Shown piece after piece: positions 24,405-26,003 of a DNA stretch of 64,000 nucleotides; the stretch's first letter is position 1; each line of letters opens with the position of its first letter. A program made the translations under genes and the position numbers. The stretch spans positions 434,001-498,000 of the forward strand of contig NZ_JAUYGV010000006.1 of NCBI RefSeq assembly GCF_030690345.1, written 5' to 3'. Origin of the DNA: Rheinheimera sp. Its GTDB lineage: Bacteria; Pseudomonadota; Gammaproteobacteria; Enterobacterales; Alteromonadaceae. The notes under the pieces are model-generated. The model saw nothing but the letters and a program-made list of their open reading frames with translations. It did no database searches and had not been told where the DNA came from.

Positions 24405-24493
24405 CGCTCTGGTAGCTGTACCAGGTTGCCCGTGCTAAGTGAAGATAATGAATGAAGATTAACTTACAGCGGTTGTTGCGGTATGGAGGAAGA

Positions 24494-24521
24494 AGGTAGG
24501 CCGCATACTGCGCGGCCACCT
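24494..24521 (-). terminator. 3' terminal hairpin of the CsrB-like RNA
   Basis: RNA strand AGGU-GGCCGC-GCAGUAU-GCGGCC-U-ACCU followed by pyrimidine-rich CUUCUUCC; poor U tract. Confidence 0.6.
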
Positions 24522-24821
24522 AAGGTCCTGTTTCGTCATCCTGTCGATACTGTCCTTAGCATATCATCCCTGGCTCCGTCCCGGAGTGTTCCTGAGGCAT
24601 CCTGCCTGATCCTGTCATCCTTAAACATTATCATCCTGATAATGTGCTCTCATCCTGAGAGTGTCCTGTATCTTCCGTGCAATTCTCAGCGCCTGTGAAG
24701 AATCTGAAAAAAGGCCTGCTCGTCCTGAGCGTGTCCTGTTATTCATCCTTGTGCTATCCTAGCCAGACACTGCGTCCTGCAGTTACACCCTGTCATCCTG
24801 TCAGGGGGTCGATCCGTTGAC
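24494..24821 (-). ncRNA. csrB: CsrB/CsrC-type CsrA-sequestering sRNA
   Basis: Minus strand carries 16 AGGA motifs (about 20 GGA) in about 325 nt. Eight perfect hairpins present a GGA-type motif in the loop, e.g. ACAUUAUC-AGGAU-GAUAAUGU, CUCUC-AGGAU-GAGAG, AGGC-AGGAU-GCCU, GCUC-AGGAC-GAGC. Flanked by promoter-like and terminator-like elements. Confidence 0.92.
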
Positions 24822-24825
24822 GAGT

Positions 24826-24854
24826 TAAGTATGAACTCTGCAGCGCGATTTAAG
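24826..24854 (-). promoter_or_regulatory. Candidate sigma-70 core promoter of csrB-like RNA
   Basis: Minus strand CTTAAA - 17 bp - TACTTA; predicted start near 24819. Confidence 0.4.
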
Positions 24855-24925
24855 CATGGCTTTTGAGAAAAAAGCACAGTGTAATATTATTGTAAAACAT
24901 GATAACTATGCCATTTAACGATATT

Positions 24926-24938
24926 TATCATTAACTTA
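24926..24938. promoter_or_regulatory. IHF-like site between operator and csrB promoter
   Basis: TATCATTAACTTA, one mismatch to WATCAANNNNTTR. Confidence 0.3.
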
Positions 24939-24992
24939 TAAGTGTTTCTTGTTGTGAGTTTCCGGGGTAAATAGCGTTTAAGCTCACTCATT

Positions 24993-25010
24993 TGTGAGAT
25001 ATATCTCACA
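24993..25010. promoter_or_regulatory. UvrY/GacA-type upstream activating palindrome
   Basis: TGTGAGATATATCTCACA, perfect 18-bp inverted repeat, similar to the csrB/rsm GacA-box TGTAAG/TGTGAG-N6-CTTACA/CTCACA. Confidence 0.75.
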
Positions 25011-25079
25011 ACAAAGCCTGCCGTTAGGGTGCGATATGTCGCAGCCGGGCTGAAAACCTGTGGTTACAAAAGGAATATT

Positions 25080-26003
25080 ATGGCCAGAGAGCAACTGGGT
25101 GTTTGTGCTGAAGCGAATTTACATGGCAGTTATTTACTATTTAATGCATTAGAGGGGCATGAACGGGTGCTGCGGCACAAGCTGGCCCGTTTGCCGCAAT
25201 TATTTGACCGGCTTGCTGAACATTTTTCTGAAGCAATGCTCACAGGGGTGGTCGCTATTGGCAGTAGTTTTTGGGATCTGCTGTATCCTGATGCCAGGCC
25301 GGCCGGCCTTACTGCTTTTCCGGATTTGAGCACTGAAGATATCGATTTGGCGCCGGTGCCTTTGGATATACTGATCCAAATTCGTTCAGACCGGTTAGAC
25401 GTCAACATCATTGCCAGCCTGCAGGTACAGCAGATGTTGCAAGGTCATGTTGAATTACAAGACCAGTTACAGGGTTTCCGTTATCTGGATGGCCGGAACC
25501 TGAGCGGCTTTGTTGATGCACCTTATAATCCAAAAGGCCGTGCCAAGCGGCAGGCGGCTTTGGTGGATGCGGCGCAGCAACCGGTATTTGCCGCCGGCAG
25601 CTATGTCTATCTGCAACGTTTGGCTTTTGATGCTGTAGCCTGGCAACAACTGGCTGTGTCTGAGCAGGAAGAAATCATGGGCTACGACAAAGTCAGTGGC
25701 AAAAGATTAGCCGGCGCGATGCTGTTGCCTGACAGTCATATTACATTGATGCTGCCGGATCCGGACAGCTCATCGCGGGTACTGCAACAGAATATGCCGT
25801 TTTGTCTGCTACCACAGCAGGGGCTGATACAGCTGAGTTTCGCCGCAGATACGGCTGCGTTGCAGCAGCAACTAACGAACAGGCTTGGTCTGGCAACACA
25901 GGGGAGGGGCTACGATCTGTTGTTAAACTACTGCCGCATTGAGCTGAGTGCGGCTTTCTTTGCACCTTCAATCAGCTTTTTGGAGTTGTCTGCCAAAGTA
26001 TAA
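25080..26003 (+). CDS. DyP-type (YfeX-like) peroxidase, divergent active-site motifs
   Basis: GFVDAPYNPKG (cf. GFVDGTENP), DSHITLM (heme His region), MPFC...GLIQLSFAAD; start moved to MAREQLGV with AGGA upstream. Confidence 0.8.
   Translation: MAREQLGVCAEANLHGSYLLFNALEGHERVLRHKLARLPQLFDRLAEHFSEAMLTGVVAIGSSFWDLLYPDARPAGLTAFPDLSTEDIDLAPVPLDILIQIRSDRLDVNIIASLQVQQMLQGHVELQDQLQGFRYLDGRNLSGFVDAPYNPKGRAKRQAALVDAAQQPVFAAGSYVYLQRLAFDAVAWQQLAVSEQEEIMGYDKVSGKRLAGAMLLPDSHITLMLPDPDSSSRVLQQNMPFCLLPQQGLIQLSFAADTAALQQQLTNRLGLATQGRGYDLLLNYCRIELSAAFFAPSISFLELSAKV

Follow-up and report, generated by a model that had tools for sequence, protein, structure and literature searches.

In Escherichia coli, the inverted repeat upstream of csrB is centred at -183/-182 and is footprinted by UvrY, its in vivo crosslinking requires BarA, and IHF assists (PMC4682653). 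In the K-12 sequence, the repeat TGTGAGAGATCTCTTACA extends from -191 to -174 relative to the start annotated for csrB (centre -182.5). A second UvrY crosslink is located near the E. coli csrB promoter, where there is no inverted repeat, and two TGTAAG units 11 bp apart are situated nearer the promoter. In Shewanella oneidensis, UvrY boxes were predicted upstream of both csrB1 and csrB2 (PMC3171408). Our literature search found no paper joining csrB with Rheinheimera.

The window analysed here is a stretch of 64 kb, positions 434001-498000 of contig C1. It contains the sequence TGTGAGATATATCTCACA, a perfect 18-bp inverted repeat at 24993-25010, whose symmetry reaches 20 bp (24992-25011). Both the palindrome and its extension had been given in the preliminary description, together with a likeness to the GacA/UvrY consensus, and all of this was borne out, the sequence being a perfect fit to TGT(A/G)AG-N6-CT(C/T)ACA, the pattern of UvrY/GacA sites of Csr/Rsm RNA genes. 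With a tolerance of up to 3 mismatches, the 18-mer has a single match within the window and none in 100 shuffled windows. The whole genome (4.35 Mb) contains exactly two exact copies, no copies with 1-3 mismatches and no matches to the reversed control. The degenerate pattern TGTRAG-N6-CTYACA returned only the same two sites genome-wide, and its reversed control gave one match. A blastn search of the region against plasmids yielded no match. The features of the locus are collected in Table 1.

Table 1. Features around the palindrome and the csrB gene (window coordinates).
Feature	Position	Strand	Remarks
csrB small RNA gene	24487..24821	-	24487-24802 by Rfam, extended to the predicted 5' end
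Predicted -10 box CATACT of csrB	24828..24833	-	kept in 27 congeners with a constant spacing to the palindrome
Conserved element TTACAATAATATTACA	24880..24895	-	on the plus strand, a pair of TGTAA units resembling half-sites and 11 bp apart; located at about -74 to -59; possible second UvrY contact
Possible IHF site TAAGTTAATGATA	24926..24938	-	one mismatch to YAANNNNTTGATW; shared offset in most congeners; weak
Conserved block AGTGAGCTTAAACGCTATTT adjoining the palindrome	24969..24988	-	starts with GTGAG/GTAAG half-site-like sequence; putative function
Perfect inverted repeat TGTGAGATATATCTCACA	24993..25010	.	spans about -189 to -172 of csrB; predicted UvrY site and distal activating site
Divergent DyP-type peroxidase gene	25080..26003	+	neighbour; the csrB side is taken as the main target

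The csrB gene was recognized in a whole-genome search by the Rfam CsrB model (RF00018), which matched the minus strand at 24802-24487 over the full model length with 43.3 bits (E 2.6e-10). Because this score lies under the gathering cut-off of 71 bits, a default Rfam scan of the window reported nothing. A sub-threshold CsrB match was also found in 29 of the 30 congeners searched. The region 24441-24821 (about 380 nt) carries 21 GGA motifs, 11 of them mostly unpaired in a single-sequence fold, which is the abundance of exposed GGA motifs characteristic of the CsrB family. Two other genomes of the order have multiple CsrB-type matches: one (G043) contains five consecutive matches inside about 3 kb, and the other (G036) has a total of six.

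Based on the conserved -10 box, the csrB +1 is predicted at about 24821, and the centre of the palindrome is about 180 bp upstream of it. The distance of about 170-190 bp from the start of the CsrB-like RNA, proposed earlier, holds relative to this predicted +1; measured from the point where the Rfam match starts (24802), the palindrome is 191-208 bp away. The gene mgsA is located beyond csrB, and the divergent peroxidase gene lies on the other side of the palindrome.

To describe the promoter in the genus, 27 csrB upstream regions were aligned. The palindrome was nearly invariant (mean 1.95 bits per position), an invariance that is partly built in, since the 27 sequences were chosen by pattern (ASCERTAINMENT). 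In a pattern-free check, 30 csrB genes of the genus, our own genome included, were collected by Rfam alone; the pattern was present in 28 of them, and the remaining two had the palindrome with 2-3 mismatches. Counted from the centre of the palindrome, the -10 hexamer begins after 166-168 bp in 27/27 csrB promoters. Three conserved blocks were distinguished on the csrB side: AGT(A/G)AGTTTAAACGCTATTT at the palindrome, TTTTACAATAATATTACA farther down, and the -10 box CATAAT/CATACT followed by GTC(A/G)ACGGA. The first of them, strongly conserved in congeners, includes the AAACGCTATTT half and aligns in position with TGTAGGAGA of E. coli csrB. In the proximal element, TGTAATATTATTGTAA, the two TGTAA units and their 11-bp distance were kept in most congeners. 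The IHF site is graded as possible because consensus matches barely exceed those in shuffles (at most one mismatch in 10/27 congeners versus about 19% of shuffles).

The same bases allow one to weigh a different reading, according to which the palindrome is a CRP-type site (TGTGA...TCACA) providing cAMP-responsive control of csrB or of the peroxidase gene. The outer arms TGTGA and TCACA do correspond to CRP half-sites. However, a standard CRP site has 6 bp between its arms, and here the arms are 8 bp apart, so that no TGTGA-N6-TCACA is formed. The inner bases AGA.AT.TCT were kept in 46/46 genus sites, although the search pattern demanded those bases for most of them. In some sites the sequence is TGTAAG, a variant that fits the UvrY/GacA consensus but disrupts the CRP arm, and the sites are confined to Csr RNA genes, with no broad catabolite regulon. 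Given the arm spacing, the inner-base conservation and the TGTAAG variants, we rejected a CRP site as highly improbable.

It should be noted that matches to TGTRAG-N6-CTYACA without the AGA.AT.TCT core exist in congeners, where they were checked in part. One of them, TGTGAGTGGTCACTTACA, is inside a long open frame in 4 genomes, and its recurrence is probably a matter of coding conservation. Another, TGTAAGCCGATTCTCACA, occurs outside long open frames in two congeners (L200:1010-1027 and L201:1011-1028) and is possibly another UvrY target, or unrelated.

The second copy of TGTGAGATATATCTCACA is located outside the window, at C4:68518-68535 (locus L032:1501-1518). A cytochrome c4-type gene with its terminator comes before it, and after it comes an unannotated GGA-rich stretch of about 312 nt, which itself ends in a terminator. 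In this region (L032:1501-2000, corresponding to C4:68518-69017), the palindrome lies about 178 bp upstream of the RNA gene. The flanking genes are a yihA/engB-type GTPase gene and yihI (PF04220, 104 bits), and the cytochrome c4-type gene together with a methyltransferase-like gene is inserted between them. The RNA gene thus occupies the interval between yihA and yihI, which is the location of csrC in E. coli. By its position, the second copy marks a csrC ortholog carrying an identical upstream palindrome.

The csrC-type RNA was kept in 19 genus members with the promoter elements TTGCCAT and TAAATT, and in these 19 promoters the palindrome centre is 163-165 bp from the -10 element. In most of them, a TGTAAG/TGTAGG half-site follows the palindrome after 4-5 bp, a position that corresponds to TGTAGGAGA in E. 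coli csrB. In the fold of the csrC alignment, 7 of 8 GGA motifs are unpaired, and 21 of 55 pairs vary yet stay paired. Rfam did not recognize this RNA even at a permissive threshold. The palindrome stands at a conserved distance upstream of a Csr/Rsm RNA promoter in 27 csrB genomes and 19 csrC ones. The preliminary description had proposed that a genome-wide search for the 18-mer should give few matches, concentrated at Csr RNA genes; two were obtained, both upstream of Csr-type RNAs and at a nearly equal distance.

To assess how widespread the palindrome is, the exact 18-mer was scanned in 84,980 species genomes (257 Gb). It was found at 111 places, nearly all in Gammaproteobacteria, with genera including Rheinheimera, Arsukibacterium, Alishewanella, Shewanella, Marinobacter and Psychrosphaera. 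Chance expectation under a uniform random model (257e9/4^18) is about 3.7 places, which corresponds to a roughly 30-fold excess. The idea that the palindrome is simply a chance sequence could appeal to nothing beyond its short length, and it has to face this over-representation, the conservation throughout the genus and the fact that the two copies in the genome are found only at Csr RNA genes. Conservation and genome-wide placement refute a chance origin, the probability of which we consider negligible.

A GGA cluster was defined as at least 4 (C/A)AGGA or (C/A)AGGGA motifs per 300-nt stretch within 520 nt. Such a cluster is faced by 83 of the 111 places; among 698 pseudo-sites taken from those loci, 11 do so. 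By synteny, ten further places correspond to the csrC location, and another two are next to the DyP gene, with the RNA side cut off by the locus end. The first GGA motif is mostly 175-225 bp from the palindrome centre, and a minor near group is found at 25-100 bp. As far as these sequences indicate, an exact copy of the 18-mer is an almost specific marker of Csr/Rsm RNA genes. Several of the leftover places (L093, L114, L153, L159, L165 and L169; Spongiibacter, Zhongshania and Neomelitea) have the 18-mer some 60 bp ahead of a short stretch that contains two or three ANGGA motifs, near 60 and 79 and in some cases also near 96, together with a T-run near 138. These stretches look like short Rsm-type RNAs with a close-in site.

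The position of the palindrome between two divergent genes also brings up the possibility that it is an operator of the DyP peroxidase gene, csrB being nearby merely as a neighbour. Its centre is 78 bp from the DyP start codon, and 39 of the 111 exact sites have a DyP gene no more than 400 bp away. On the other hand, 46 RNA-facing sites have no DyP neighbour. In the 27-sequence alignment, the stretch from the palindrome to the peroxidase gene is unconserved (0.45 bits per position), whereas the csrB side shows 1.0 bits per position beside the palindrome and 1.2-1.3 in both the proximal element and the -10 region. Furthermore, the other gene flanking the palindrome at the csrC locus terminates before reaching it, which leaves the RNA as the only possible target there. 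The conservation asymmetry and the csrC locus led us to reject the operator as the main role of the palindrome, a reading to which we assign a very low likelihood. Part of it may nevertheless be true, in that the palindrome may be shared between control of csrB and control of the DyP gene.

The regulatory partners expected for control of csrB by UvrY are encoded in the genome. A UvrY/GacA-type regulator was found directly upstream of uvrC (NF007018, 360 bits, cut-off 280), and the BarA/GacS kinase was identified as BarA (NF008318, 906 bits, cut-off 890). The UvrY protein is 63% identical to that of E. coli, with an identical helix-turn-helix segment (KTVNSYRYRMF). Genes for CsrA and for IHF-alpha (TIGR00987, above cut-off) are present as well.

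Based on the above results, we suggest that the palindrome is a distal upstream activating site of csrB acting via BarA/UvrY, with a probability of about 0.93. The motif, the spacing and the partner genes reproduce the BarA-UvrY-csrB layout of E. coli and support the UvrY-type activator site put forward in the preliminary description; from this likeness we infer UvrY binding and its effect on csrB transcription, and phosphorylation dependence, bending and activation would follow by the same analogy. The following scheme is proposed. Active BarA would phosphorylate UvrY, and a dimer of UvrY-P would bind the 18-bp inverted repeat, with a further UvrY unit possibly occupying the adjoining half-site. 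A bend in the intervening DNA, perhaps through IHF, would then bring the site to the csrB promoter, some 180 bp away, and there UvrY would activate RNA polymerase. The CsrB RNA produced would titrate CsrA. The identical second site would drive the csrC-type RNA at yihA-yihI, and consequently both sponges would answer one signal.

Close to 16 helical turns and shared by two unrelated genes, the spacing of 163-168 bp suggests that looping is face-specific, as far as can be judged from the sequences. A more elaborate arrangement can also be proposed, albeit doubtfully, in which csrB has a composite array of the distal palindrome, the adjoining half-site and the proximal TGTAA pair at about -74 to -59, the last of which would be a second contact for UvrY. 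In such an array, the fixed distance of the palindrome from the -10 element at two unrelated RNA genes would imply a defined looped activation complex, and the proximal TGTAA element could correspond to the second UvrY crosslink, the one close to the promoter of csrB in E. coli.

Sites of this kind are already well described; the present analysis adds a csrC ortholog, a spacing that is nearly constant and the observation that the 18-mer is almost specific for Csr/Rsm RNA genes. The UvrY-csrB promoter layout, experimentally defined in E. coli, is now extended to Rheinheimera-type bacteria with its spacing almost unchanged. Since the csrB and csrC promoters have little in common save the palindrome, the spacing and the half-site, they offer a clean test of UvrY action from 180 bp.

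Compared with the csrB repeat of E. coli and Salmonella, which is bound by UvrY/SirA (PMC4682653), the half-sites (TGTGAG...) and the 18-bp length are common to both. The centre is at -182.5 in E. coli and at about -180 here; a half-site-like sequence is found just downstream in both, and BarA and UvrY are orthologous. In contrast to E. coli, where GATC is at the centre, the csrB repeat here is perfect and has TATA at its centre. The csrB neighbours also differ, being mgsA and the DyP peroxidase gene here and yqcC and syd in E. coli, and the csrC repeat, degenerate in E. coli, is perfect here. Shewanella oneidensis, a relative of the same order, shares the box consensus and BarA/UvrY-controlled Csr RNAs (PMC3171408). 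It has two adjacent csrB copies, whereas one csrB and one csrC-type RNA are present here at separate loci. With the Pseudomonas GacA box (TGTAAGN6CTTACA) of rsmX/Y/Z, the palindrome has the consensus and the regulator family in common. The Pseudomonas box is much closer to its promoter, without the roughly 180-bp spacing.
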